Shown here one piece after another: positions 15,625-36,253 of a stretch of 49,872 nucleotides of DNA. The notes below the pieces were generated by a model. It was given only the letters and a program-made list of their open reading frames with translations, was not told where the DNA came from and did not search any database. Positions within the stretch are counted from its first letter, which is position 1. The number at the start of each line of letters is the position of its first letter. Made by a program: the position numbers and the translations under genes. Source of the DNA: Plectonema radiosum NIES-515 (lineage in GTDB: Bacteria > Cyanobacteriota > Cyanobacteriia > Cyanobacteriales > Nostocaceae); contig NZ_JAOWRF010000033.1 of assembly GCF_025753815.1 (NCBI RefSeq), positions 1 through 49,872 on the forward strand. The letters run 5' to 3'.

Positions 15625-18600
15625 ATGAACTCCTTTTTGTCGTTAAGAGTTCAGGGAGAGCTGAAGCATACAAGCAATCAGCATCCCACTCCCCGTGCTA
15701 TCCTCGGATTGTTGAGGTTAGTTGCTGTTAATACAAACCTAGCATTGGACTTTAGCTCTTTTTGGAAAATTCTGGAGTTTCAACTAGGTGACGATTTGAG
15801 TAGCTACGGTATCTTTGGAGATGAAGAAAGCCGTAATGTTGTTTACTTAGTTTGCAGTGGAAAAGTGCGACTGCTAGGCTTTGACGCAACTTTGAGACGA
15901 GAAGTATCAACTCAGTTGCTTGGATCAGAGCAAATTTTTGGCGCAGACGATTTCTTTATTCATAAATCTTTACAATATCGAGCGATCGCATCAAGTGCGG
16001 GTTTGATTGCTTGCATTACTCTAAATGACTTAAAACCGTGGTTCAGTGAAATACCCAATCTTAAAGATTATTTACAGCAAACAACTTATGAGCGACAAAC
16101 GCTGATTTTCTTCAAAACCCATACAGAATTTCGCTATCAAACCAGCCAACAACTCCAAAAAATCTTACCCAACTTCAAACAAATCAAGATAAATGCTGGC
16201 TCATCTTTACTAGAAGCAATTCCACCTGATCTTGGTCGCTTTTGGCTTGCAAGTGGACTTCTTCACACTTTATCAGACACTCAGTCACCTGTTGTCGGAC
16301 AAAGCTGGGGATATGCGATGACGCTACCAACTTGGGTTGCCGAAACTGACTTACTAGTATATCACCTGCCTGAAGAAAATTGGGAATTGGCTTCTACGAC
16401 GACGGCTCCTCAATTAGCCAACCAGCGGCAAGTTCTTCAAACTGACACAACAAACCAACCGGAAATCGAAGAAGAACACTCTCAAGCAAAGACATTTCCC
16501 CTGTTGGTGCCTTCTAGCAACTTAGAGTTAGAGACACCGGAAATTGACTTTCCCCAAGTAAACCCACCTTGGTCGATCGCTTCGTTATGGGGTCGCTATC
16601 GGTTTATTCAACAGTACAGTTCTTCAGATTGTGGTGCAGCGTGTTTGGCGATGGTTAGCCAATACTGGGGTAAACGCTTCAGTTTGAGCACTTTGCGTAA
16701 TTTAGCACAAATAGACCAAAACGGTGCGTCTGTTTCCGATTTAGCGGCAGCAGCAGAAACTTTGGGATATGATACGCTAATTGTGCGGGCTTCTTTAAGT
16801 AAGTTGGAATGGCAAACTAACCCTTGGATCGCCCACTGGCAACAAATTCACTACGTAGTTGTTTGGGAAGTTAAAGGCGATCGCATCATCATTTCCGACC
16901 CTGCCATCGGTAAGCGATCGCTTTCGCGCCAAGAATTTTTGGCTGGCTGGACAGAATATGCTGTGCTTTTACACCCCACAGAACGCTTCCAAGGGATTGA
17001 AAGCGAAAAAATTTCACATACGCGCTATTTACAGTTATTTTGGGATTACCGCCACCTTTTAAAGAAAATCATTCTCACTTCATTGTTCTTAGGGATTTTT
17101 GGGCTGGTAACTCCTTTATTTGCTCAGTTGTTTCTCGACATGATGCCATTAAAAAGCAGCGTCACATTAAATGTGCTTGTTGGCAGCTTTCTTTTTTTTG
17201 GCATCTTGCGTATAGCGTTTTCCGCATTCTATCAACACCTTCTAGACTACTTTGCGAACCAAATCGACTTGAGATTAATTGGCAATTTTATTCGCCATGC
17301 GCTAAATTTGCCGTCGCAATTTTTCGCTTCTCGCCAAGTCGAAGACATAATCAGCGGTGTTCAGGAAAACCGTAAAATCCAACAGTTTCTCACCCGTCAT
17401 GCTTTGAGTGCAATTATAAATGCACTTTTTGCTTTTGTCTATATCGGATTGATGGCTTTTTACAACTTGTCGCTGACATTGGTGGTTTCGCTGTTTATTT
17501 TAGCGATCGCAATTTTGAATTTAGCGGCAAATCCGTTGCTTAATCGAGTGTCGCAAGAAATCGGCAACTCAGCGGCAGCGCAAAACTCATCTTTAGTTGA
17601 AGCGATCGCAGGTATTACCACCGTCAAGAGCGCAGCAGCCGAAAGCTTAATCAGTTCCCGTTGGCAAGAGCGCTTTCTGGATATGTTAAAAGTGCGTTTT
17701 CAGGGGCAGAAACTAGCCAACAACTTGCAAGTAATTAGCAATTTGCTTAATCACCTCGGTACTACAGCCGTGTTGTGGTGTGGAGCGACTCTGGTAATGA
17801 GCGAGCAAATGACGATTGGTCAGTTTGTCGCTTTTAACATCGCATACGCTAATGTCCTCAAACCAGTTTTGGCTTTAGTGAAAGTGTGGGATGAGTTCCA
17901 AGGGGTGCTGATTTCCATCGAAAAGGTGAATGATGTCTTTGGTTGTGCCGCTGAAGAAAATCTTCAAAAACCGCTATCGGTGCTGCCACCGATTCAGGGA
18001 GAGGTAATTTTTGAGAATGTGTCTTTTGGTTACAAGCAAGGTGAACCGCACATTTTGCAAAATATTTCTTTTCAGGTGAAACCTGGACAGACGATTGGCA
18101 TTGTTGGTGCTAGCGGTGCGGGTAAAAGCACTTTAGTAAATTTACTGGCTGGTTTATATCCTCCAAGCACGGGACGGATTTTGATTGATGGACGTGATAT
18201 AGCAGATATTTCTCTGCAATCGTTGCGAAGTCAGCTAGGTGTGGTGCAACAAGAATGTTTTCTGTTTTCAGGGACGATTTGGGAAAACATTACCCTGTTT
18301 GACTCACAGTTGACTCTCGATCAGGCGATCGCTGCTGCCAAGTTAGCCGAAGCACACACCTTTATCGAAACGCTGCACGACGGTTACAACACCCAAGTGG
18401 GAGGACAAGGGTTGATGCTATTGAGTGAACAGCAAAAAAAAATAGCGATCGCTCGTGCACTTGTCAGAAATCCCCCAATTTTCATTTTAGATGAAGCCAC
18501 AAGTTCTCTAGATGCATCACAACGTCGGTTTCAACAAAATTTAGCCCGCTTGAATCGCACCACTTTCCTGATTGCCCATCATCTCGCGGTGGTTCGCAAT

Positions 18601-18717
18601 GCTGACTGCATACTTGTCTTAGACAGAGGTATCCTTGTTGAACAGGGCACTCATCAAGAACTAATGGCAATTAACGGTATTTATTACCACCTATCTCAAC
18701 AGCAAGTGCATTTGTAA
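15625..18717 (+). CDS. hetC: HetC: C39-peptidase-type ABC exporter of heterocyst differentiation
   Basis: A 1030-residue protein, close to Anabaena HetC in length. Layout: cyclic-nucleotide-binding-like N-terminus (about 60-200); C39 peptidase (about 325-450) with Cys336 in SSSDCGAACLAM, His409 in QIHYVVVW and Asp425 in IISDPAIG; transmembrane ABC domain (about 470-760); nucleotide-binding domain with Walker A GASGAGKS (Lys834), Walker B FILDEATSSLD (Asp956, Glu957) and H-loop His985. Odd: the ABC signature is LSEQQ (933-937) instead of LSGGQ, so both glycines are lost. HetC is needed early in heterocyst differentiation; its substrate is not established. I name it HetC because hetP follows, with a HetR-type site between. 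Distinguishing it from other exporters of this architecture rests on that context. Confidence 0.85.
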   Translation: MNSFLSLRVQGELKHTSNQHPTPRAILGLLRLVAVNTNLALDFSSFWKILEFQLGDDLSSYGIFGDEESRNVVYLVCSGKVRLLGFDATLRREVSTQLLGSEQIFGADDFFIHKSLQYRAIASSAGLIACITLNDLKPWFSEIPNLKDYLQQTTYERQTLIFFKTHTEFRYQTSQQLQKILPNFKQIKINAGSSLLEAIPPDLGRFWLASGLLHTLSDTQSPVVGQSWGYAMTLPTWVAETDLLVYHLPEENWELASTTTAPQLANQRQVLQTDTTNQPEIEEEHSQAKTFPLLVPSSNLELETPEIDFPQVNPPWSIASLWGRYRFIQQYSSSDCGAACLAMVSQYWGKRFSLSTLRNLAQIDQNGASVSDLAAAAETLGYDTLIVRASLSKLEWQTNPWIAHWQQIHYVVVWEVKGDRIIISDPAIGKRSLSRQEFLAGWTEYAVLLHPTERFQGIESEKISHTRYLQLFWDYRHLLKKIILTSLFLGIFGLVTPLFAQLFLDMMPLKSSVTLNVLVGSFLFFGILRIAFSAFYQHLLDYFANQIDLRLIGNFIRHALNLPSQFFASRQVEDIISGVQENRKIQQFLTRHALSAIINALFAFVYIGLMAFYNLSLTLVVSLFILAIAILNLAANPLLNRVSQEIGNSAAAQNSSLVEAIAGITTVKSAAAESLISSRWQERFLDMLKVRFQGQKLANNLQVISNLLNHLGTTAVLWCGATLVMSEQMTIGQFVAFNIAYANVLKPVLALVKVWDEFQGVLISIEKVNDVFGCAAEENLQKPLSVLPPIQGEVIFENVSFGYKQGEPHILQNISFQVKPGQTIGIVGASGAGKSTLVNLLAGLYPPSTGRILIDGRDIADISLQSLRSQLGVVQQECFLFSGTIWENITLFDSQLTLDQAIAAAKLAEAHTFIETLHDGYNTQVGGQGLMLLSEQQKKIAIARALVRNPPIFILDEATSSLDASQRRFQQNLARLNRTTFLIAHHLAVVRNADCILVLDRGILVEQGTHQELMAINGIYYHLSQQQVHL

Positions 18718-20009: not shown

Positions 20010-20322
20010 GTGGCACAAACATTTAGGCGATCGCTCTTAATAATGACCCAGGATGCAAGCCTAATTTTATTGCTTAGGAATGCTTCAGCAATCAGCAGAT
20101 TTTGTCAACAAAAAAAATCAAGGTGCAAATCAAACTTGATGTTGAAGGCAAGAGTTTGTAACAAGTCAGACCACTGCACGCAATTATCTACCAATCCATC
20201 CCCAATGAGCTAATCAAGCAGCTGCCCACAAAGCGCTGTTGATCAAAGCACTCTTTCCATTTTCCCACCAAAAATCAAACCCAAAGTTAAGCTGGTTTAC
20301 TTCATCCAACACACCTAAAACC

Positions 20323-20793
20323 ATGAATCAAGATATTACTAACATTAGTCACAAATTAAATAAGGTAATTAATCCTGAGCAATTAGACCAGGTAGTTGAA
20401 GCCATTCTTGCGGGAAAGTATTCCTGGGCTTGTGTTTTGATGCTACGCTTGGCTGGGTACAATCCTTTACATTACATTCCCTACCGCACCTATAATCGGT
20501 TGCTTAAAGAAAACACCCAGCAGCTCAGGTCAAATCAACAGCACAACGAAAATTTACAAATCGTCAAATCATCTTCCGAAAAAAGGTCTGAAGGTAATCT
20601 TTCACCCAGTTGCTTAAGCAAAATTAAAGACCTAGCTTATTTAGAAGTGGTTGGCAAACATCAAACAGAAATTCGTGGTCGGGGTCTAGATCAGGGGTTG
20701 GGAACACAGATTAATGAGCATCAATCCATTAAATCTGAATTAAGACCAGAAATGGCTCCCGAATTTTCCGAAAAATTATCTAATTTAAATTAA
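20323..20793 (+). CDS. hetP: HetP family heterocyst commitment protein
   Basis: A 156-residue protein from the ATG at 20323; the in-frame TTG at 20239 adds a segment unlike the family. The HetP signature spans about residues 20-62: [40 protein letters not shown] and LKEN. HetP drives commitment to heterocyst fate downstream of HetR. It lies 3' of hetC, as in Anabaena, with a HetR-type repeat in its long upstream region. Odd: residues 101-122 read [19 protein letters not shown] followed by RG. This resembles the leader plus double-Gly site of the precursor peptides encoded at 30-33 kb. The C-terminal tail is polar and variable. Whether this motif is a general HetP feature must be checked. Confidence 0.9.
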
Positions 20794-20977: not shown

Positions 20978-21724
20978 ATGAATGACCTTTCAAAATTAGT
21001 TATTGAACCAAAGGAGATTGTCAACTTCCTCAAAAGCGAAATTAGTTTCAAACAAGTCTGTCAAAAAATGTTGTTTCAAAAGGTGATATGTCAGGCTGCA
21101 CAAGAAAGAGGGATTATTGTAACAACAGAGGAAATTGAGGCAGAAGTAAATCGTCAACGTCGTGAAAAGCGTTTGGAAAAAGCTACAGATACTTTGTCAT
21201 GGTTAACAGATGAATTGATTAGTTTGGATGATTGGGAAGTCGGAATCCGCAATCATCTACTGTCACAAAAATTAGCTCAGACGCTCTTTGCTCAAGAAGT
21301 AGAAAGTTTCTTTATCCAAAATAACCTTAATTTTGAGCAAGTTGTCTTTTATCAAATCATTCTTGATTCTGAAAAACTGGCTCAAGAACTTTATTATCAA
21401 ATTGAAGAAGGTGAAATCAGTTTTTATGATGCGGCTCACCTTTATGATATTGATCATAAGCGCCGAAAAAAGTGCGGTTACGAAGGAAAAGTCTATCGTT
21501 GTTCCATAGAGGTAGACATAGCTACTATTCTATTTACAACAATACCTAAGCGGTTGATTGGACCGCTGAAAACCGACCGAGGTTATCATCTTTTAATGGT
21601 TGAAGAGTTGATTCCTCCTGAATTATCACCTGAAAGATATCAAGAAATTCTTAATAATATGTTTGAGCAGTGGCTAAATGCGGAGTTAGATTATATACTT
21701 AATTTAGCCCAATTAGAAACTTAA
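20978..21724 (+). CDS. Parvulin/SurA-type peptidylprolyl isomerase, copy 1
   Basis: A 248-residue protein. The N-terminal helical SurA-like part (1-120) has FQKVICQAAQERGIIVTTEE and SWLTDELISLDDWE. A divergent parvulin domain follows (about 125-215), including FYQIILDSEKLAQELYYQIE, CGYEGKVYR and PLKTDRGYHLLMVEE. It has no signal peptide, so it is probably cytoplasmic or exported by another route. Proteins of this type are regularly found beside C39-peptidase ABC exporters and HlyD adaptors in cyanobacterial bacteriocin-type loci. A chaperone role for precursor peptides is an inference. A related copy is encoded at 29066. The parvulin catalytic residues are not clearly conserved, so activity is uncertain. 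Confidence 0.82.
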   Translation: MNDLSKLVIEPKEIVNFLKSEISFKQVCQKMLFQKVICQAAQERGIIVTTEEIEAEVNRQRREKRLEKATDTLSWLTDELISLDDWEVGIRNHLLSQKLAQTLFAQEVESFFIQNNLNFEQVVFYQIILDSEKLAQELYYQIEEGEISFYDAAHLYDIDHKRRKKCGYEGKVYRCSIEVDIATILFTTIPKRLIGPLKTDRGYHLLMVEELIPPELSPERYQEILNNMFEQWLNAELDYILNLAQLET

Positions 21725-23572: not shown

Positions 23573-23732
23573 ACTTCACTTGCAATGATTCGGCTTTGAA
23601 AAAATTCACCAAACTAAGCATGTGGGAATTAATATCTGCAACTGGCAATTTAACTCCTAACTTAGTTTCTATTAATATGTAGTCAAATGTTAAAAACCCT
23701 TGACTATTATCTGAAATTTGCAGGGGGAAACT

Positions 23733-26700
23733 GTGTTTTCACAGCAACAGTTAAGTCAACAACTCACCAAAATTTTGGGTGAGACGCTTTGCGACAGTGA
23801 ACTTGATAGGTGTTTGGCAGGAATTGAAATTGTTGAACCACCTTTATCTAAGCAATTTTGGCAAGCAGAAGAAGCAAAACCAGGGATTTATATTATCCTG
23901 GGGGGTAAATGCAGACTTTTAGATAGTGCTGATAACTTAATTACTACTATAAATGTTGGGGAATCATTTGGTGAGGTAACTCTGTTTCCCGAAGAAGAGT
24001 TAACAAGTTACGCTGCGAGAGCTTCTGTTAATTTAAAGCTTGGCTATATCTCCTCTGAAGCGCTGCAATTGGTTCTTCGCCAACATCCAAGTATAAGCGA
24101 TCGCCTAAGAGAACGCGCCGAAATTTGGGATTTAATGCTGTTATGTCGGCAAAATTCTCAACTTGCGGGACATACTTCTCTTGTTGAAGGGATGCTCAAA
24201 GCCTTATCTTATTTTTCACGGCATTACCTAGAAATTGGACCGATACCAGCAACAGTATCTCAAGATTGCCAGATATTGCTGTTGCATCGCGGTCAATTGC
24301 AACATACTGACGGACGCTGTTTGACACCTGGTAATATATGTGAATTTGACACCAATAATTGGCACACCAAAGAAAAAGCGATCGCCTATATTCTCAAAAA
24401 TTCTGATGTCTCTGCTGCACTGCAACACTGTCCGGAATTAGGGTTTTTTATCAATTCCACCCCTCTCAAGTCTGCCCCCGTTGAACGGGAGCAGCGAAAA
24501 AGCAGGTCAAATTCAAAAGAATATTTTGATACATCAGCAAAAATCATTCCCTTTCCCCAGCGCGATCCCAAGTCAAAAGAAAAGCCAAAAAAACAGCGTC
24601 CTTTCTTTCCTACCCCCAAAGTGCAAATCGGGCATTGGTGGGGACACCTCACCAAGCGCTATCCATATTATGCTCAACAAAGCGCTTCGGATTGCGGCTC
24701 TGCCTGCTTGGTGATGATTGGTAACTATTGGGGCAAGCACTTTAGTGTCAATCGCTTGCGGGATATGACCAACGTCAACCGCAGTGGGGCATCTTTACGT
24801 GCCCTAGCAGCGGCAGCCGAAAGCCTGGGTTTTGCTACCCGTCCCGTCAAAGCCAGTCTAGATAAATTAGCAGAACAATCTCTGCCCGCGATCGCTCACT
24901 GGGAAGGCAAGCACTTCATCGTCGTCTATGAAATCACCAAAAAGCGAGTGATAGTCGGCGATCCTGCCCTTGGACAACGCACCTTAACCAAAAGCGAATT
25001 TAACACAGGCTGGACTGGTTATGCATTGTTATTGCAACCCACATCTCTACTCAAAGATGCCAAAGCCGAAAGTACAGGCTTTTGGAAGTTTTTTGAGTTA
25101 GTCAAACCCCACTACCGGGTACTGATAGAAGTCTTTTTGGCAAGCGTGCTGATGCAGCTATTTGGACTAGTAACGCCGATATTCACCCAGTTGTTGCTAG
25201 ACAGAGTGCTTGTGCAACGCAGCGTTGCCACCTTAAACGCCGTTGGGGTGGGAATGATCGTTTTTGGCTTATTCAGTATCGCCATGAACGGAGTGCGGCA
25301 ATATCTGCTCGATCACACCGCAAACCGCGTTAGCCTTTCTTTGTTGGTAGGCTTTATCAAACATACCCTGCGCTTGCCCCTCTCTTATTTCGAGTCGCGT
25401 TATGTCGGAGATATCGTCTCTCGCATTCAAGAAAACCAGAAAATTCAGCGTTTTCTAACTGGGCAGACACTCTCAATCATCCTGGATATGATGACATTGG
25501 TTGTCTATCTAGCTCTGATGTTCAGTTATAGCTGGCGGATGGCATTATTAGTGTTGTTTACTGTGCCGCCATTTTTTATCTTAGCCCTGAGTAGCACAAG
25601 TATTTTACGCCGCATTTCCAGAGAGATTTTTAACGCTGGTGCCGAAGAAAATAGCTATCTCATAGAATCGCTGACCGGTATTCGCACAGTTCGCTCATTA
25701 GCTATTGAACAGACGGTGCGGTGGCATTGGGAAGAACTGCTGCATAATTTGATCAAAAAAAGCTTTAATGCCCAGATAATCGGCATCCGCTTGCAAATTC
25801 TCAGTGGTACGATCCAAACCTTTGTGAATACAGGATTGATGTGGTTTGGTGCATGGCAGGTGATTCAAGGTGAGCTGACTGTTGGGCAATTAGTTGCTTT
25901 CAATATGTTGGTGGGTAACGTCTTGAGTCCTTTTCAACGGTTGTCTGGACTGTGGAATGAATTGCAGGAAATCGTTATTTCCACCGAACGGATTAATGAT
26001 GTTTTAGAAGCAGAACCAGAAGAAGACTTACATAATAAACCCCGTAAGTCACTGGGTAGACTTGAGGGTAATATCCGCTTTCAGAATGTCACCTTCCGCT
26101 ATCACCCAGAAAGTGAAACGAACGTGCTGGAAAATCTGACTTTTGAAATTCAGCCCAATCAAATGGTGGCAGTTGTCGGACGCAGTGGTTCAGGAAAAAC
26201 AACCTTAAGTAAGTTGATTTTAGGTTTATACCCTACGACAGATGGCAAAGTATTGATTGACGGTCATGATATTGCTACCATCTCATTGCGATCGCTTCGT
26301 TCTCAAGTTGGTGTAGTCGATCAAGATACCTTTCTCTTTGGTAGTACCATTCGTGAAAACATCTCCATCGCTCACCCAGAAGCTTCATTAGAAGAAATTA
26401 TTCAAGCAGCACGATTTGCAGGAGCTGATGAATTTATTCAGAACCTGCCAATGGGTTATCAATCCCAAATAGGTGAAGCTGGTGGTATGCTTTCTGGCGG
26501 ACAACGCCAACGCCTAGCGATCGCTCGCGCTTTGTTGGGAAATCCGCGTTTATTACTTTTTGATGAAGCCACCAGTCACCTAGACTCTGAATCAGAACGC
26601 ATTATTCAGAACAACCTGAAAACAATTCTCAAAGGACGCACAAGTCTAATTATTGCCCATCGCCTTTCTACTGTCCGCAATGCTGATTTGATTTTAGTTT

Positions 26701-26804
26701 TAGATCGGGGCGTATTAGTAGAAAGCGGCACTCACGACGAATTAATTACCAAAAAAGGTCATTATTACTACTTAAATCAACAACAACTAGCTCAAGCAGG
26801 TTGA
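23733..26804 (+). CDS. Peptidase-containing ABC transporter (C39, cNMP-binding N-terminus)
   Basis: A bacteriocin-type exporter that cleaves leader peptides after Gly-Gly and exports the core. I choose the GTG at 23733, which has AGGGGG about 7 nt upstream; a TTG at 23718 adds five residues. Layout: cNMP-binding-like domain (about 40-160), Ser/Lys-rich linker, C39 peptidase with Cys in SASDCGSACLVMI (codon 24693-24695), His in GKHFIVVYE and Asp in VGDPALGQ; six-helix ABC domain; complete nucleotide-binding domain with GRSGSGKT, LSGGQRQRLAIARALL, LLFDEATSHLD and IAHRL. Unlike the HetC above, the signature is intact. HlyD follows 191 bp later. It probably serves the precursors at 30-33 kb and perhaps the microviridin precursor. 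Confidence 0.95.
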   Translation: MFSQQQLSQQLTKILGETLCDSELDRCLAGIEIVEPPLSKQFWQAEEAKPGIYIILGGKCRLLDSADNLITTINVGESFGEVTLFPEEELTSYAARASVNLKLGYISSEALQLVLRQHPSISDRLRERAEIWDLMLLCRQNSQLAGHTSLVEGMLKALSYFSRHYLEIGPIPATVSQDCQILLLHRGQLQHTDGRCLTPGNICEFDTNNWHTKEKAIAYILKNSDVSAALQHCPELGFFINSTPLKSAPVEREQRKSRSNSKEYFDTSAKIIPFPQRDPKSKEKPKKQRPFFPTPKVQIGHWWGHLTKRYPYYAQQSASDCGSACLVMIGNYWGKHFSVNRLRDMTNVNRSGASLRALAAAAESLGFATRPVKASLDKLAEQSLPAIAHWEGKHFIVVYEITKKRVIVGDPALGQRTLTKSEFNTGWTGYALLLQPTSLLKDAKAESTGFWKFFELVKPHYRVLIEVFLASVLMQLFGLVTPIFTQLLLDRVLVQRSVATLNAVGVGMIVFGLFSIAMNGVRQYLLDHTANRVSLSLLVGFIKHTLRLPLSYFESRYVGDIVSRIQENQKIQRFLTGQTLSIILDMMTLVVYLALMFSYSWRMALLVLFTVPPFFILALSSTSILRRISREIFNAGAEENSYLIESLTGIRTVRSLAIEQTVRWHWEELLHNLIKKSFNAQIIGIRLQILSGTIQTFVNTGLMWFGAWQVIQGELTVGQLVAFNMLVGNVLSPFQRLSGLWNELQEIVISTERINDVLEAEPEEDLHNKPRKSLGRLEGNIRFQNVTFRYHPESETNVLENLTFEIQPNQMVAVVGRSGSGKTTLSKLILGLYPTTDGKVLIDGHDIATISLRSLRSQVGVVDQDTFLFGSTIRENISIAHPEASLEEIIQAARFAGADEFIQNLPMGYQSQIGEAGGMLSGGQRQRLAIARALLGNPRLLLFDEATSHLDSESERIIQNNLKTILKGRTSLIIAHRLSTVRNADLILVLDRGVLVESGTHDELITKKGHYYYLNQQQLAQAG

Positions 26805-26995: not shown

Positions 26996-28531
26996 ATGCC
27001 ATATGCATCTGTTAATTCTTCATCCCCACTCCCCCAAGAGGAGGGGGATGAGTATAAAAGTTATACGCACTCCAAAGAATCTGCCCAAACATCAGATAAC
27101 GCTCAAGACTTGTACTACGGCACCGAAGAACTGCTGGATGCCTTACCCAGAGTTTGGACTCGTGGTGTGTTGTATGTGTTGGTAGGCTTTGCATTTGTCT
27201 TGTTACCTTGGGCAACGCTTTCAAAGGTAGATGAAACAGGAAGTGCCAGAGGACGTATAGAACCAAAAGGTGCAACCCAAAAGTTAGACACATCTATAGG
27301 TGGAAGCGTCAAAGCTGTCAGGGTAAAAGAAGGTGACACCGTGAAAGCAGGGCAGGTTCTGCTGGAACTTGAATCTGATATTTTGGAAACTGAAATGCAA
27401 CAAGCCAAAGAAAAATTACAAGGCTTGCGAAATCAAGTAGGGCAACTCGATGTCATCAAAAAACAATTAGAATTAACCCTTGGTGTTCAGGAGCAACAAA
27501 ACCGATCGCAAGGCTTAGAAAAAATATCTCAAGTCAACCAGGCAAAGCAAAATCTGGATGCGAAACAAAGTATTTATAATCTCCAAAAGCTAGAAAAACA
27601 AGCATTACTCAGTCAAGCACAGCAGCAAATTAGCACCACTCAGAATGACGAGAAATCAGCTCAAAATCGTTTGATTATAGATTCAAGACAAGTGGAACGT
27701 TTTAGCCAGCTTGTTAACGATGGTGCCGTTTCGACAAACCAAGTTGACCAACTCAAAAAAGAAGAACAAGAAAGCAAACGACTTTATGAAAAAGCTAAAT
27801 CTGACATCAAACAAGCTGAATTACGTTTAACTGAAGAACAAAATCGCTATCAGTCCACAATGAGTCAGTTGGGGTCGGATATTAAGCAAGCAAATCTGCG
27901 ATTGCAAGAAGAACAAAATAGCCATCAAAGCCTATTGCAAACTGGTAAACTGGCTATGTTGAGAAATCAGCAACAAGTCAAAGATTTAGATACACAAATT
28001 GGGACGTTAAAATCGCAAATTGCCCAAGCTGGAAGCCAAGTTACATCATTAGAACTGCAAATGCAGCAACGAATCGTGCGATCGCCTATTGATGGTGTGA
28101 TTTTTGAATTTCCCACCACCAAGCCAGGAGCAGTCGTCCAACCAGGACAAAGGATTGCTCAAATTGCACCCAAAAATACTAACTTTGCACTCAAGGCTCA
28201 GATACCCAGTCAAGATAGTGGTTTCTTGAAGGTGGGAATGCCAGTCAAAATCAAGTTTGATGCCTATCCTTTCCAGGAATATGGCATCGTCCAAGGAAAA
28301 CTTACTTGGATTTCTCCCGACTCTAAAGTTAGTCAAACACCCCAAGGAAATGCAGAAAACTTTGATTTAGAAATCACCATAGACCAACAGTATATCCAAA
28401 ATGGTAAAAAACGTATTCCATTAAGCGCGGGACAGACTGCAAATGCTGAAGTAATTATTCGTCAACGACGGGTGATTGACTTCGTTTTAGATCCGTTTAA
28501 GAAGCTCCAAAAAGGCGGTTTGGAGATGTAG
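26996..28531 (+). CDS. HlyD-family membrane fusion protein
   Basis: A 511-residue periplasmic adaptor that links an inner-membrane ABC exporter to an outer-membrane channel. After a polar N-terminus there is one membrane helix at about 58-75 (VLYVLVGFAFVLLPWATLSK). The first half of the lipoyl/barrel-sandwich follows (GRIEPKGATQKLDTSIGG, VKEGDTVKAGQVLLELESD). A long coiled-coil hairpin covers about 130-350 (Gln/Glu/Lys-rich, ISTTQNDEKSAQNRL and others). The second half lipoyl segment is IVRSPIDGVIFEFPTTKPGA, and a beta-barrel completes it. It clearly partners the preceding ABC exporter. No TolC-like gene is in the window. Identity of family firm. Confidence 0.93.
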   Translation: MPYASVNSSSPLPQEEGDEYKSYTHSKESAQTSDNAQDLYYGTEELLDALPRVWTRGVLYVLVGFAFVLLPWATLSKVDETGSARGRIEPKGATQKLDTSIGGSVKAVRVKEGDTVKAGQVLLELESDILETEMQQAKEKLQGLRNQVGQLDVIKKQLELTLGVQEQQNRSQGLEKISQVNQAKQNLDAKQSIYNLQKLEKQALLSQAQQQISTTQNDEKSAQNRLIIDSRQVERFSQLVNDGAVSTNQVDQLKKEEQESKRLYEKAKSDIKQAELRLTEEQNRYQSTMSQLGSDIKQANLRLQEEQNSHQSLLQTGKLAMLRNQQQVKDLDTQIGTLKSQIAQAGSQVTSLELQMQQRIVRSPIDGVIFEFPTTKPGAVVQPGQRIAQIAPKNTNFALKAQIPSQDSGFLKVGMPVKIKFDAYPFQEYGIVQGKLTWISPDSKVSQTPQGNAENFDLEITIDQQYIQNGKKRIPLSAGQTANAEVIIRQRRVIDFVLDPFKKLQKGGLEM

Positions 28532-30308: not shown

Positions 30309-30647
30309 ATGATTATTTCAGATTTGAATTACTTGGAAGCTGTAAGTCAAGAAACCGAAGTTATCGGTGGTTCTTATTATTATAACCCTGGCTATAACTT
30401 CTACAAAAACGTCAGCGCGAATGTAAACACCAACACTGTCTTTAATTCCAACACCAACATCAACGATGTCTTCAACAAAAATGCAAACATCAATGTCAGA
30501 TCGAGTGTAACAGGTAATTCATCTACCTTTGCCTTGGACAACGAAGCTCAAGGTTACAACAGCAACACTCAAGGTGCGCTAAATCAGCTAGCAGTTGCGG
30601 GACAATACTCCGGTCAAAATGGAGTCTTCGTTGCTGCCGCAAACTAA
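30309..30647 (+). CDS. Double-glycine-leader precursor peptide 1 (Asn-rich)
   Basis: 112 residues with an excellent ribosome site (AGGAG, 6 nt before ATG). The leader is ISDLNYLEAVSQETEVIGG, ending in Gly-Gly at residues 20-21, as expected for C39 peptidase cleavage. The core is 91 residues. After an aromatic start (SYYYNPGYNFYKN) it alternates hydrophobic and Asn/Thr residues: NVSANVNTNTVFNSNTNIND and VFNKNANINV. It then has Gln/Gly-rich stretches (AQGYNSNTQG, AGQYSGQNG). It has no Cys and no obvious modification sites. The alternation suggests beta-strands, possibly self-assembly. Expected substrate of the exporter at 23733. Function unknown; antimicrobial or surface roles are both possible. 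Confidence 0.85.
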   Translation: MIISDLNYLEAVSQETEVIGGSYYYNPGYNFYKNVSANVNTNTVFNSNTNINDVFNKNANINVRSSVTGNSSTFALDNEAQGYNSNTQGALNQLAVAGQYSGQNGVFVAAAN

Positions 30648-30809: not shown

Positions 30810-31076
30810 ATGCATATTTGCGATCTCGATTACTTAGAGTTGGTTTCGGAAACATCCACCATGCATTTAAATGGTGGTAAGGCTGTCGCAATTTCTGCAT
30901 TTTCAGCAAGTGCCTTTGGTGATGCAACCAGCATCAATACTTTTTTGAGAAATCTAGCAATTAGTGGATCTAATGGTTCCCTCGCTAATAGTTCAGTTCA
31001 TATTGCTTCAATATCATCTGGTGGCAGCACTTTTGCTTATGCTTCTTCTTTAGCTTATGTTTCTTCAAGTCCTTAA
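30810..31076 (+). CDS. Double-glycine-leader precursor peptide 2
   Basis: 88 residues. The leader contains ICDLDYLELV and ends HLNGG (residues 22-23), the same motif as precursor 1. The core is Ser/Ala-rich with alternating hydrophobic residues (VAISAFSASAFGDATS and SVHIASISSGGSTFAYASSL). This is a beta-strand-like pattern without Cys. A GAGAAG lies before the ATG as a weak ribosome site. Probable substrate of the local C39 exporter. Confidence 0.8.
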   Translation: MHICDLDYLELVSETSTMHLNGGKAVAISAFSASAFGDATSINTFLRNLAISGSNGSLANSSVHIASISSGGSTFAYASSLAYVSSSP

Positions 31077-32159: not shown

Positions 32160-32510
32160 ATGAATAAACGCTTAATCATCAAGGACTTAAATTATCTAGA
32201 GCCGGTTAAGGAAAATACTGTTGTCGGAGGTGATGATGTTGTCGCTCTTACTGGCACGATTGCAATAACCGGACCTGGTTATGCTAGTGCTGGTGCGGTG
32301 GCACTTGCTGCCGGTCAGATTACTGGCATCGATATTCAAACCCAAACAAGTGCCTCAGCGAGTATCAGTTTAGCTAATGCAAGAGCCGAAGCCTATGCAA
32401 GGACTGGAAACAATACTGCTGTATCCTTGAGTTATAGTAACTCTAGTTTTAATCCTAGAAGTTCTAATAGGTCTAATTCGCTTTCTTTGAATTCAACAAC
32501 GACACCATAA
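32160..32510 (+). CDS. Double-glycine-leader precursor peptide 3
   Basis: I place the start at the ATG at 32160 (116 residues), because it puts the leader motif at the very N-terminus, as in the other precursors; an upstream ATG at 32094 adds unrelated residues. The leader is IKDLNYLEPVKENTVVGG. The core is Ala/Gly/Ser-rich: GTIAITGPGYASAGAVALAA, then QTQTSASASISLANARAEAY, and a Ser/Asn-rich tail. The residue alternation matches precursor 2. No Cys. Confidence 0.8.
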   Translation: MNKRLIIKDLNYLEPVKENTVVGGDDVVALTGTIAITGPGYASAGAVALAAGQITGIDIQTQTSASASISLANARAEAYARTGNNTAVSLSYSNSSFNPRSSNRSNSLSLNSTTTP

Positions 32511-32793: not shown

Positions 32794-33126
32794 ATGAGTG
32801 TATTACAGATATCAGACCTGAGCTTTTGTGAAGTAGTAGAGAAAGAAATCGAAGTCCAAGGTGGTGCATATATTTTGGCGGGAAACATAAAAAATGAAAA
32901 TTTACGCTCGTTAATAACGAGATCGTTTTCTCCTTCGCTGCTTGTAGAATACGATCGCCAACCACTTTATTCCACGACAGATATTGTAGTTGACAAATTA
33001 CAGAATCAAATCACTGGTGAATCAGGATATTTAACCTCAAGTAAAGATGGGAAATATCAATCTGGTGTGATAGTTGGTCAAAACTCTGTAAAAAGTTTTG
33101 CCTCATACATTTCCTCTTCTACTTGA
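32794..33126 (+). CDS. Double-glycine-leader precursor peptide 4
   Basis: 110 residues with a strong ribosome site (AGGAGG, 7 nt before ATG). The leader is ISDLSFCEVVEKEIEVQGG, with YL replaced by FC. The core differs from the Ser/Ala-rich ones: AYILAGNIKNENLRSLITRS, then FSPSLLVEYDRQPLYSTTDI and a Ser-rich end. So one leader type serves unrelated cores. No modification enzyme motif is obvious for it. Confidence 0.8.
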   Translation: MSVLQISDLSFCEVVEKEIEVQGGAYILAGNIKNENLRSLITRSFSPSLLVEYDRQPLYSTTDIVVDKLQNQITGESGYLTSSKDGKYQSGVIVGQNSVKSFASYISSST

Positions 33127-33173: not shown

Positions 33174-33506
33174 ATGCAGATTACTGATTTGTCGTATTTA
33201 GACAATGTTCTACAAGAGGAGTTGATTTCAGGTTCTGCTGGAGTGCTTGTAGATGCTACCGCATCAGCTTCAGGCTATCCAAGCAGCACTTTCATTTTTA
33301 CAGATGCTAGAGGTAAACTCTTGCCGAGCGGTGTTTCTATAGCATTTGGTCGAGGATTAGCAGTGGCAAATGGTGATAATCTTACAGTTAACGTTACAGT
33401 CGCAGGTGATGGCGATATTGTGTTAGGAAAAACTATAAATCGTCATTTTCAAGCTACTGCTATTGCCCGTGGTTTTGTCATCGCGATTGATTTACCTAAC
33501 CGCTAG
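33174..33506 (+). CDS. Leader-type precursor peptide 5, altered cleavage site
   Basis: 110 residues starting directly with the leader: ITDLSYLDNVLQEELISG, then SAG. The expected Gly-Gly is Ser-Gly or Ala-Gly here, so cleavage may be after ISG, after SAG, or lost. The core is beta-like and hydrophobic-alternating: VLVDATASASGYPSSTFIFT, then SIAFGRGLAVANGDNLTVNV and VIAIDLPNR. No strong ribosome site (AAAAAGTAG before ATG). Confidence 0.75.
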   Translation: MQITDLSYLDNVLQEELISGSAGVLVDATASASGYPSSTFIFTDARGKLLPSGVSIAFGRGLAVANGDNLTVNVTVAGDGDIVLGKTINRHFQATAIARGFVIAIDLPNR

Positions 33507-33718: not shown

Positions 33719-34090
33719 ATGTCTGACAACGATCGCTCAGATTTAAATTCTCAAGCAGTACCATTCTTTGCCCGTTACTTAGAAGGGCAATTCTGCGAAG
33801 ATTTGTCTGAAGAAGAAATGGAAGCAGTTCAAGGTGGTACTACATTTGTGACGCTAAAATTCCCCTCCGACAACGAAGAAGGTGGTCATGGTGGAGGGGT
33901 TGTCACTAATAAATTCCCCAGGGATAAAGAAGATTGGGGTGGAGGAGTTGTTACTAATAAATTCCCCAGCGATAAAGAAGATTGGGGTGGAGGAGTTGTC
34001 ACCAGAAAGTACCCATCAGATGCTGATGAATATGCTGTGACACAAAAGTATCCATCAGATGGAGACGATCACGCTTTTCCCATAGATTAA
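33719..34090 (+). CDS. mdnA: Multi-core microviridin precursor peptide
   Basis: 123 residues, ribosome site AAGGAG. The leader has VPFFARYLEGQFCEDLSEEE, whose PFFARxL helix is the recognition motif for the ATP-grasp ligases, and ends EAVQGG at 39-40. Five microviridin-like cores follow: TLKFPSDNEE (45-54), TNKFPRDKED (63-72), TNKFPSDKED (79-88), TRKYPSDADE (95-104), TQKYPSDGDD (108-117), separated by Gly-rich or short linkers. The TxKxPSDx[ED][ED] pattern supplies Thr/Ser-Asp/Glu esters and a Lys-Glu/Asp amide. In core 2 the Ser is Arg68, so one ester is impossible. Microviridins are protease inhibitors. The ligase genes follow directly. Confidence 0.95.
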   Translation: MSDNDRSDLNSQAVPFFARYLEGQFCEDLSEEEMEAVQGGTTFVTLKFPSDNEEGGHGGGVVTNKFPRDKEDWGGGVVTNKFPSDKEDWGGGVVTRKYPSDADEYAVTQKYPSDGDDHAFPID

Positions 34091-34176: not shown

Positions 34177-35166
34177 ATGCATCTATCGCGTGATGTTGTT
34201 TTATTAATTACCCACAGTGGTGATTTTTTCACAATAGATAGAGTAGCACAAGCTGTATCAAAACGGGGCGCACAACCGTTTCGCTTGGACACTGATAAAT
34301 TTCCGCTGCAAGTGAAACTGAAACAGCAACTGGGCAATAAAAGCAGTCACAGACTCGAATACGATCGAGCATCTTCTCATCTACATTCTATCGATAGCGA
34401 TCAGGTAGTAGCAGTTTGGATGCGTCGGATTTTTGCTCCCCAGATGAATACAGAATTGCTTCCTCAATTCCAAGCAGCTTGTGCTAGGGAGTCATTGGCA
34501 ACTTTAAATGGTTTTTGGGACAGTTTGCGAAAAGCGCGTTGGGTAGATAATTTACAGCAAATTGCTGTTGCCGAAAACAAGCTACACCAACTGCGAGTAG
34601 CGTCTGAGGTTGGTCTTATTATCCCTCAGACTCTTGTCACCAACAATGCTGAATCTGTGGGGGAGTTTTTCTCTGAGGTGAAGGGTAAAATGGTGACTAA
34701 ACTGTTAACTCCTATTTCCATGAGTATGAAAGGCTCCCCTTTCTTTTTTTACACCAGTGCTGTTAAAGAAGAAGACTTGCTTGATGGGGAAACACTGCGG
34801 TATTGTCCGATGGTTTTTCAAGAAGAAATACCCAAACAATGGGAATTGCGGGTGGTGTTTGTTAATGGTAATTTCTTTGTAGGAGCGCTAGATGCATCTG
34901 TTTATAATACATCTACTCTTGATTGGCGTTGTGCGAAAAACGAAGCTTGTGTATGGCAACCTTATGAATTGCCAATTGGAATCAAACTTGCGATCAAAGA
35001 TTTTATGGCAAGGTTTGGGCTACTTTTTGGAGCCTTTGATTTTATCGTCACACCAGCAGAAGAATACGTCTTTTTAGAAGTTAATCCTGTAGGGGAATGG
35101 GGAATGTTAGAGCGAGATTTGGACTACCCGATTTCGGAAGCGATCGCTTCGGCTTTGCTTCCCTGA
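34177..35166 (+). CDS. mdnC: Microviridin ATP-grasp ligase, ester-forming type (MdnC/MvdD)
   Basis: 329 residues. It starts DVVLLITHSGDFFTIDRVAQ, then QPFRLDTDKFPLQVKL, the N-terminal domain of graspetide ligases that binds the precursor leader. The ATP-grasp core has KGKMVTKLLTPISMS, FQEEIPKQWELRVVFVNGNF and FGAFDFIVTPAEEYVFLEVN, which carries the metal/ATP residues. It ends NPVGEWGMLERDLDYPISEA. Similarity to MdnC/MvdD from memory, rather than MdnB, suggests it forms the two lactone (ester) bonds on each core using ATP. It is followed by the second ligase 37 bp later. Confidence 0.92.
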   Translation: MHLSRDVVLLITHSGDFFTIDRVAQAVSKRGAQPFRLDTDKFPLQVKLKQQLGNKSSHRLEYDRASSHLHSIDSDQVVAVWMRRIFAPQMNTELLPQFQAACARESLATLNGFWDSLRKARWVDNLQQIAVAENKLHQLRVASEVGLIIPQTLVTNNAESVGEFFSEVKGKMVTKLLTPISMSMKGSPFFFYTSAVKEEDLLDGETLRYCPMVFQEEIPKQWELRVVFVNGNFFVGALDASVYNTSTLDWRCAKNEACVWQPYELPIGIKLAIKDFMARFGLLFGAFDFIVTPAEEYVFLEVNPVGEWGMLERDLDYPISEAIASALLP

Positions 35167-35203
35167 AGTATTTAATTTCAAATATTGATGGGGTTTACTT
35201 CAG

Positions 35204-36253
35204 ATGACAGTTTTAATAATTACCCATAGCCAAGATAACGAGAGCATTCCTCTAGTAATGCAAGCGATCGCAGCGCAAGGAGGAAAGGCTTTTCGTTTTG
35301 ATACAGACAGATTTCCCACTCAACTACAACTAAATATTTACTACGGTAAAGAAAAACAGCAACTAATTCTAATTGATGAAGACAAAAAATTAGACTTGAG
35401 CGAAATATCAGCAGTTTGGTATCGACGAATTGCGATCGCTGCAAGAATTCCGACCACAATGGACTCGCAACTAAGACTTGCCTCGGTGCAGGAGTCTCGT
35501 GTCACCATTCAGGGTATGATTGCCAGTATACCGGGATTCCACTTAGACCGATTGCCAAATATCCGTCTTGCCGATAATAAACAGCTACAATTACAAGTAG
35601 CACGAATGCTAGGTTTAGATACACCACGCACGCTGATTACAAATAATCCCCAAGCAGTTAAGCAATTTTACCAAGAGTGCGAGCAGGGTATGATTGCAAA
35701 AATGCTTTCTTCCTTTGCTATCTACGATCGCGAAGCACAAGAGCATGTAGTATTCACCAATCCGGTTACAGATGCAGATTTAGACAATCTGGATGGATTG
35801 CATTTGTGTCCGATGACATTTCAAGAGAAAGTACCCAAAGCACTGGAGTTACGGACAACGATTGTTGGTAAACGTGTATTTACCGCAGCGGTTGATTCCC
35901 AAAGTTTGCAACGATCTCGTTACGACTGGCGCCGAGAAGGAATTGCCTTACTCAATGCTTGGCAACCTTACGATTTACCCCAGGATATACAGAACAAGCT
36001 GCTTGAGCTAATGGCTCACTTTGGTTTAAATTATGGAGCAATTGATATCATTTTAACACCTGACGGTCGGCATATATTCCTTGAGATTAATCCTGTGGGT
36101 GAATTTTTCTGGATGGAACATTGTCCTGGCTTTCCGATTTCTCAAGCGATCGCTGAGGTATTGTTAACTAACTCCCATACAAAAGACTTCTTGCAGTTAT
36201 TTGAGCAAAAAGACGATCAAAAACATCAAAACGCATTTTCCCCGCAAGTTTAA
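35204..36253 (+). CDS. mdnB: Microviridin ATP-grasp ligase, amide-forming type (MdnB/MvdC)
   Basis: 349 residues, paralogous to the preceding ligase. It starts TVLIITHSQDNESIPLVMQA, then GGKAFRFDTDRFPTQLQL; the DNESIPLV stretch is typical of the MdnB/MvdC type. ATP-grasp segments are GMIAKMLSSF, FQEKVPKALELRTTIVGKRV and GAIDIILTPDGRHIFLEINP. It should form the Lys-Glu/Asp lactam after ester formation. About 30 extra polar residues at the C-terminus are unremarkable. No acetyltransferase (MdnD) or dedicated transporter (MdnE) gene follows; the next gene is on the other strand. Confidence 0.92.
   Translation: MTVLIITHSQDNESIPLVMQAIAAQGGKAFRFDTDRFPTQLQLNIYYGKEKQQLILIDEDKKLDLSEISAVWYRRIAIAARIPTTMDSQLRLASVQESRVTIQGMIASIPGFHLDRLPNIRLADNKQLQLQVARMLGLDTPRTLITNNPQAVKQFYQECEQGMIAKMLSSFAIYDREAQEHVVFTNPVTDADLDNLDGLHLCPMTFQEKVPKALELRTTIVGKRVFTAAVDSQSLQRSRYDWRREGIALLNAWQPYDLPQDIQNKLLELMAHFGLNYGAIDIILTPDGRHIFLEINPVGEFFWMEHCPGFPISQAIAEVLLTNSHTKDFLQLFEQKDDQKHQNAFSPQV

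Follow-up and report, generated by a model that had tools for sequence, protein, structure and literature searches.

In the Nostocaceae, the C-terminal tail of HetP is, judged as a family from its sequence, a leader of the DLxYLE double-glycine class, and its upkeep follows the presence of the C39 exporter HetC, whose gene adjoins hetP. HetP thereby appears as the best candidate for the substrate of HetC. The motif itself has been known since 2011; what is new here is the evidence joining the HetP tail to HetC.

The window, by which we mean the whole stretch of DNA that was analysed, comprises positions 1-49,872 of the forward strand of contig NZ_JAOWRF010000033.1 (Plectonema radiosum NIES-515, assembly GCF_025753815.1). 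A preliminary description of the window had proposed that HetP ends in a leader-like segment with a double-glycine site and that HetC recognises it. As an observation this proves largely right, its double-glycine part being wrong for the copy in the window, and the proposed recognition by HetC is partly supported.

hetC and hetP in the window

The product of hetC (Table 1) matches Peptidase_C39 (E = 1.2e-37) and ABC_tran (E = 5.1e-32), both above the Pfam cut-offs, and its N-terminus has a weak match to cNMP-binding domains that stays below the cut-off. With these two domains and the complete set of catalytic residues, HetC is the C39 exporter adjoining HetP that it had been taken for. A HlyD membrane fusion protein encoded in the same operon is usual for Gram-negative exporters. 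In the window, the interval from hetC to hetP holds no HlyD-like ORF of the expected size.

Table 1. Features of the window discussed in the text
Feature	Position	Strand	Remarks
hetC	15625..18717	+	1030 aa, C39 peptidase and ABC exporter; placed by the trees in the HetC1 clade
C39 peptidase domain of HetC	16597..16983	+	residues 325-453; Q330, C336, H409 and D425 all present
hetP	20323..20793	+	156 aa from ATG; an alternative TTG at 20239 would add 28 residues
Leader-like segment of HetP	20614..20682	+	residues 98-120; GR in place of GG in the window's genus
Candidate cargo of HetP	20683..20790	+	36 residues C-terminal to the leader-like segment; putative function
SurA-like protein gene	20978..21724	+	adjoins hetP; label from the cluster description in PMC3140520
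Second long-type C39 exporter (ABC2)	23718..26804	+	38% identity to HetC; comparison set
HlyD-like ORF of the ABC2 cluster	26996..28531	+	label by resemblance and cluster order (PMC3140520)
Small precursor	30309..30647	+	leader IISDLNYLEAVSQETEVIGG
Small precursor	30810..31076	+	leader HICDLDYLELVSETSTMHLNGG
Small precursor	32160..32510	+	leader IIKDLNYLEPVKENTVVGG
Small precursor	32794..33126	+	leader QISDLSFCEVVEKEIEVQGG
Small precursor	33174..33506	+	leader QITDLSYLDNVLQEELISGS
Microviridin-type precursor	33719-34090		PF12559, NF033738

Among loci with at least 6 kb of downstream DNA, a SurA-like gene with at least 50% identity to that of the window is found within 6 kb downstream of hetP at 21 of 29 loci with an intact hetC. 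None was found near hetP at the 35 loci where hetC is fragmented or gone. The SurA-like protein may be part of the HetC-HetP system.

Further along, the five small ORFs downstream of ABC2 begin with N-terminal leaders of the DLxYLE or DLxFCE type. Behind the microviridin-type precursor come two large ORFs (329 and 349 aa, 34177-36253) that have, by eye, the look of ATP-grasp ligases.

The NCBIfam HetP model NF037966 covers only residues 3-64 of HetP (119.4 bits against a curated cut-off of 45). The leader-like segment sits in the C-terminal third, outside this domain and separated from it by a linker. The stretch originally singled out, 20623-20688, is indeed in frame within HetP (residues 101-122). 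The double glycine claimed for it, with a Gly at the same distance as in the precursor leaders, does not hold up: this copy reads G-R-G, and the spacing from the Asp to GG differs by a few residues between leaders. A Pfam search of HetP returned no match, and no relative of solved structure was found (best E = 0.38). AlphaFold2 gave a poor model of HetP (mean pLDDT 51.6, pTM 0.20), and its helix at residues 104-114 and low confidence beyond residue 122 were given no weight.

The HetP tail as a double-glycine leader

A pattern for the leader, drawn up with sight of HetP as well as the small leaders, gave 57 matches in 18,056 six-frame ORFs (81 sequences, 1.54 Mb): 46 in HetP, 11 at the N-termini of small ORFs and none elsewhere, compared with a mean of 0.6 in shuffled ORFs. 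Going by their listed positions, all 11 small leader ORFs fall outside the interval from hetC to hetP. An HMM was trained on these 11 leaders, with no HetP in the training set. At E ≤ 1 it picked out 86 HetP among 31,349 ORFs, and 35 others: the 11 leaders used for training, another 23 small leader ORFs and one ORF that is neither.

Profile comparison gives the same picture. When 45 distinct HetP tails from genomes with HetC were aligned to 31 small leaders using hhalign, the score was 27.6 (probability 95, E = 2.8e-8), and none of 200 column shuffles reached it (maximum 12.0). Twenty-three segments were taken along HetP: scores between 16 and 27 are confined to the four within residues 85-125, and the other 19 remain below 10.

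In the 45 distinct tails the D, the VV and the first G are invariant, and position -4 is always I or V; the last leader residue is G in 41, R in 3 and A in 1. The tail has V at -12 and no hydrophobic residue at -7. Of the features that mark the class, HetP therefore shows the core with a hydrophobic residue at -4, and a C39 exporter gene adjoins it, hetC being 1.6 kb upstream of hetP. It departs from the class in that the leader is not at the N-terminus of a small precursor: the HetP segment starts at residue 98.

The resemblance to precursor leaders that had been seen by eye thus stands for the family, in the HMM and the profiles. It is unconvincing for the window copy by itself, which scores E = 1.5 against the 11-leader HMM. 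Chance likeness was considered and is ruled out at the family level by the pattern, HMM and profile tests; for the window copy alone the likeness is not significant.

The tail is kept where HetC is present

We searched 210 Nostocaceae genomes with completeness of at least 90% for HetP and HetC, and 203 were scored. The seven dropped genomes either gave no HetP match (G022, G175 and G176) or had no HetP1 locus with its own HetC state (G012, G028, G079 and G081). The HetC state was assigned by a bit-score cut among the matches listed. In nine of the 80 genomes scored as having HetC, the hetC frame falls short of 1000 aa or hetC is missing from the stretch examined; the catalytic residues were read in 78 of the 80.

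The DL core is found in 74 of the 80 genomes with HetC compared to 41 of the 120 without it, and G[GAS] in 76/80 compared to 61/120. A tail of at least 25 residues past the core occurs in 80/80 and 40/120, respectively. Core, G[GAS] and a tail of at least 20 residues past the glycines occur together in 69/80 genomes with HetC and in 14/120 without. The four genomes with HetC that do not have G[GAS] are the four examined genomes of the window's genus, which read GR; the strict pattern finds the core kept in three of them, and the fourth reads DIPYLE. The window HetP is apparently the least canonical copy of its family.

The remaining three genomes belong to one genus (loci L213, L214 and L219; genomes G096-G098) and carry a HetC whose catalytic Cys is replaced by Ser, one copy having His replaced by Asp as well. 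Here HetP ends within 14 residues of the motif core: the DL core is seen in 1/3 and G[GAS] in 2/3, and none of the three has 25 residues after the core or the full combination of core, G[GAS] and tail. Two other genomes of this genus are without HetC. As a single genus is concerned, the loss of the catalytic Cys is perhaps one event.

A Fisher test of the co-occurrence gives p = 1.4e-27, a value that ignores descent and is not to be quoted alone. We accordingly refer to an rpoB tree of 58 genomes, one per genus and HetC state (that with the lowest handle, G153 replacing G152). Among 11 independent pairs on this tree, tail length agrees with HetC in 6.0 on average, opposes it in 0.0 and does not differ in 5.0 (median p = 0.031). 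The corresponding median p is 0.039 for the strict motif, 0.0625 for GG alone and 0.375 (not significant) for the DL core alone. Mere shared ancestry as the cause of the co-decay is rejected on the tail-length result. The hetP tree (198 bases) yields five supported pairs and does not decide on shared ancestry.

The state of hetC was followed at 74 of the 80 named loci, those with enough upstream DNA. The DL core survives at 32/33 loci with an intact hetC, 15/28 with hetC fragments and 5/13 with no trace of hetC, and the tail of at least 25 residues at 33/33, 21/28 and 5/13. This gradient from intact through fragments to no trace suggests that hetC is lost first and that the tail decays afterwards. 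The link proposed between the HetP segment and HetC is in this way supported in part: the segment belongs to the leader class that accompanies HetC-type exporters, and its retention tracks that of HetC.

An ABC-exporter homologue of HetC is present in 210/210 Nostocaceae genomes, and among the alignments listed it spans the C39 region in genomes without HetC. Two lineages without HetC end HetP at the same place after VVGK with most of the core kept (g31: L113, L122, L124, L125 and L282; g7: L272, L277, L280, L285 and L287). In other genomes without HetC (g18 and kin; L140, L141, L274-L276, L278, L281 and others), a conserved new ending, REKKSA, replaces the GG region.

Selection on the segments of HetP

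Within genera that have HetC, pN/pS amounts to 0.09 in the HetP domain and 0.10 in the motif, compared to 0.36 in the linker and 0.33 in the C-terminal piece. With HetC present, constraint on the motif thus matches that on the HetP domain, and the C-terminal piece is hardly more constrained than the linker. Once HetC is gone, the motif is only partly released (0.17, 95% bootstrap interval 0.13-0.23, compared to 0.10, 0.06-0.14, with HetC). The C-terminal piece is not relaxed: its pN/pS is 0.16 (0.08-0.27) in the nine measurable genera without HetC compared to 0.33 with HetC. These selection results are the main evidence against reading the tail as serving HetC only.

A second pair, and HetP outside the Nostocaceae

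In a tree with the second exporter as outgroup, 18 HetC2 loci form one clade, sister to 19 sampled HetC. Fifteen HetP2 are found beside HetC2: eight have a clear leader with GG (for example INDLNYLEPLESQQINTTGG), one is borderline and six are without the motif. No HetP was found near HetC2 at 3 of the 18 HetC2 loci.

In genomes without HetC we read 20 paralogue loci, namely 12 of the 22 that reach residue 98 among the matches listed and 8 short ones. Within about 5 kb, 18 of the 20 showed no HetC-like match, and the other 2 have partial matches only. The 12 HetP2-like paralogues that reach residue 98, with no HetC2 seen alongside, have all lost the GG (12/12), and four of them stop inside the motif. 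This is the nearest approach to a refuting condition named in the preliminary description, a motif present in HetP paralogues of species without any C39 exporter, and its outcome goes against that refutation. The hetC2-hetP2 pair thus partly behaves like hetC-hetP. At several HetC2 loci (L262-L264, L268 and L271) small ORFs with DLxYLE leaders adjoin hetP2, because of which HetC2 probably has more than one substrate.

An order-wide search found a HetP-family gene in 214 of 389 genomes, 94 of these outside the Nostocaceae. We take the GTDB Nostocaceae to be the heterocyst formers, and the 94 genomes of other families are accordingly presumed to be non-heterocystous. From 79 of these 94 we sampled 80 HetP genes. 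A leader, G[GAS] and a C-terminal piece (median 18 residues) are present in 55 of the 80, and 46 of these 55 have Trp or Phe among the last six residues. These HetP (L411-L490) end after the GG in, for example, FRELPWF, RGWLFPW or FRYFWW, and such end peptides look like candidate signalling or antimicrobial peptides.

Twenty loci of other families were read with wide flanks: 17 carry a HetC2-type exporter, 19 an HlyD-like gene and 13 a SurA-like gene. The exporters are 45-54% identical to HetC and 55-65% identical to a HetC2. The usual order, exporter, HlyD, HetP, SurA, is that of hetC, hetP and SurA in the window with HlyD added. On the simplest reading of this gene order and these identities, HetC and HetP would be a heterocyst-specific offshoot of an exporter-precursor pair.

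Relation to earlier work and to known systems

Wang, Fewer and Sivonen (2011; PMC3140520) described the motif KIXDLXYLEX10GG in HetP, which they regarded as a putative bacteriocin precursor, together with a proposed cleavage site, and suggested that HetP is cut by an M16 peptidase. Theirs is the same motif in the same protein family as ours. HetC does not occur in the main text of that paper, and the co-decay, catalytic-site and second-pair evidence given here is new, with none of it found in the accessible portion of PMC3140520. A 2015 survey, as far as its accessible text goes, restates the motif (PMC4558948). In the open-access literature the motif string was found only in these two papers, and we found no paper that joins it to HetC.

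According to the accessible sections of a 2024 study (PMC10986499), the N-terminal domain of HetC is a cysteine protease needed for heterocysts, the catalytic residues of HetC are required for differentiation, and its substrate is unknown, as the preliminary description had assumed. The same sections report no gene for a leader-bearing protein near hetC and raise the question whether HetP-derived peptides are exported. In the accessible part of PMC4133259, HetC-GFP and HetP-GFP are both placed at the heterocyst poles, raised hetP-sfgfp bypasses a hetC peptidase-region mutant, and a C-terminal GFP fusion of HetP is functional and has unchanged placement in such a mutant. hetC is given as absent from Nodularia spumigena CCY9414 in the available text of PMC3610870.

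C39 leaders, in the parts of PMC6363468 at hand, bind as a helix whose hydrophobic residues occupy a groove. The last 13 residues of the leader are enough, and C39-like domains that merely recruit substrates exist. HetC shares the C39 Cys, His, Asp and Gln with LahT150 (PMC6363468) and with PteB-EbfG of Synechococcus elongatus (PMC4997328), as these are described in the accessible text. The leaders of these PCAT/AMS systems end in GG, GA or GS, as the HetP tails do in 76 of the 80 genomes with HetC, those of the window's genus reading GR. Unlike them, the HetP leader does not start a small precursor but follows a regulatory domain of about 65 residues and a linker. The HetP tail is also without the hydrophobic residue at -7 given as a rule for LahT in the same portion of PMC6363468. 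The gene for HetC, unlike that of the usual PCAT, has no immediate HlyD neighbour.

NHLP and Nif11 (N11P) precursors carry a long N-terminal part ahead of the double-glycine site, and in this HetP is like them. By description it is set apart from them by its own model (NF037966), its regulatory domain and the DLxYLE class of its leader.

A model for HetC and HetP, and its alternatives

We infer that the C39 domain of HetC probably binds the HetP tail and, in most lineages, cuts it after the double glycine and exports the C-terminal peptide, with an effect on commitment. HetP would accordingly be built like an export precursor, with the HetP domain, a loose linker, a DLxYLE-type double-glycine leader and a C-terminal peptide. 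HetC would be the cognate reader of this leader, its C39 domain binding the DLAYLEVV stretch at the cell pole. Cutting after the double glycine, in most lineages, would release the HetP domain (about residues 1-120) into the cytoplasm and send the C-terminal peptide of about 36 residues towards the periplasm. A peptide passed to the periplasm fits the absence of a HlyD gene beside hetC.

In the window's genus, with its GR, binding likely persists and canonical cutting is unlikely. Cleavage near RGLDQ, as originally suggested for this species, is doubtful because P1 would be Arg. That this genus has no double glycine (4/4) though the catalytic residues of its HetC are intact is an argument against cutting by HetC.

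The bypass of the hetC mutant by hetP-sfgfp, in the portion of PMC4133259 available, fits HetP acting with or below HetC. The functional and unmoved HetP-GFP in the same portion shows that not all that overproduced HetP does depends on cutting. Since 14/120 genomes without HetC keep core, GG and tail, a second reader or a second function is possible.

The tail may instead tether HetP to the C39 domain and never be cut, placing HetP at the poles or gating HetC, with the GG incidental. Such docking would suit the window's genus, in which HetC is intact and the GG lost with the core kept in three of four genomes, as it would the lineages truncated after VVGK that keep the core. The polar localisation that HetP and HetC have in common (PMC4133259, accessible part) and the recruiting C39-like domains (PMC6363468, accessible part) are in keeping with it as well. 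We nonetheless hold it to be unlikely. Nearly all genomes with HetC keep G[GAS] (76/80) and all keep the tail, and in the three genomes where HetC has lost its Cys, HetP ends just past the motif. Moreover, the accessible sections of PMC10986499 report that differentiation needs the catalytic residues of HetC, and those of PMC4133259 that HetP-GFP is placed the same in the hetC peptidase-region mutant.

We consider it improbable that the main readers of the tail are other C39 exporters or a different protease, for instance the M16 peptidase proposed by Wang et al. (PMC3140520), with HetC a mere frequent neighbour. An exporter homologue is indeed available in all 210 Nostocaceae genomes, with the C39 region included among the alignments listed for those without HetC, and the motif stays fairly constrained there. 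Yet the tail decays in those same genomes, the association follows HetC on the rpoB tree, and the second pair follows, in part, its own HetC2. Very improbable, finally, is an origin of HetP from an export precursor whose tail is now an ancestral leftover decaying at random. The architecture does occur well outside the family of the heterocyst formers and decay of the tail is widespread; against this, purifying selection in genera with HetC is as strong on the motif as on the HetP domain, and the tail is lost non-randomly with respect to HetC.

Recognition and cutting of the tail by HetC, the reading that we favour, can be extended more tentatively. HetP may be a two-part signal: HetC would cut it at the pole, the freed domain would drive commitment, and the peptide would enter the shared periplasm as a message to neighbouring cells. 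On the same tentative footing, the pair would be a domesticated form of an older exporter-precursor system of non-heterocystous cyanobacteria that releases short, often Trp- or Phe-containing peptides.

Implications for heterocyst development

Contrary to a statement in the accessible part of PMC10986499, the gene neighbouring hetC does encode a leader-bearing protein. If HetC reads HetP, a development-specific exporter gains a substrate and the genetic link between hetC and hetP gains a mechanism. A peptide-export system would then have been turned into a developmental switch.
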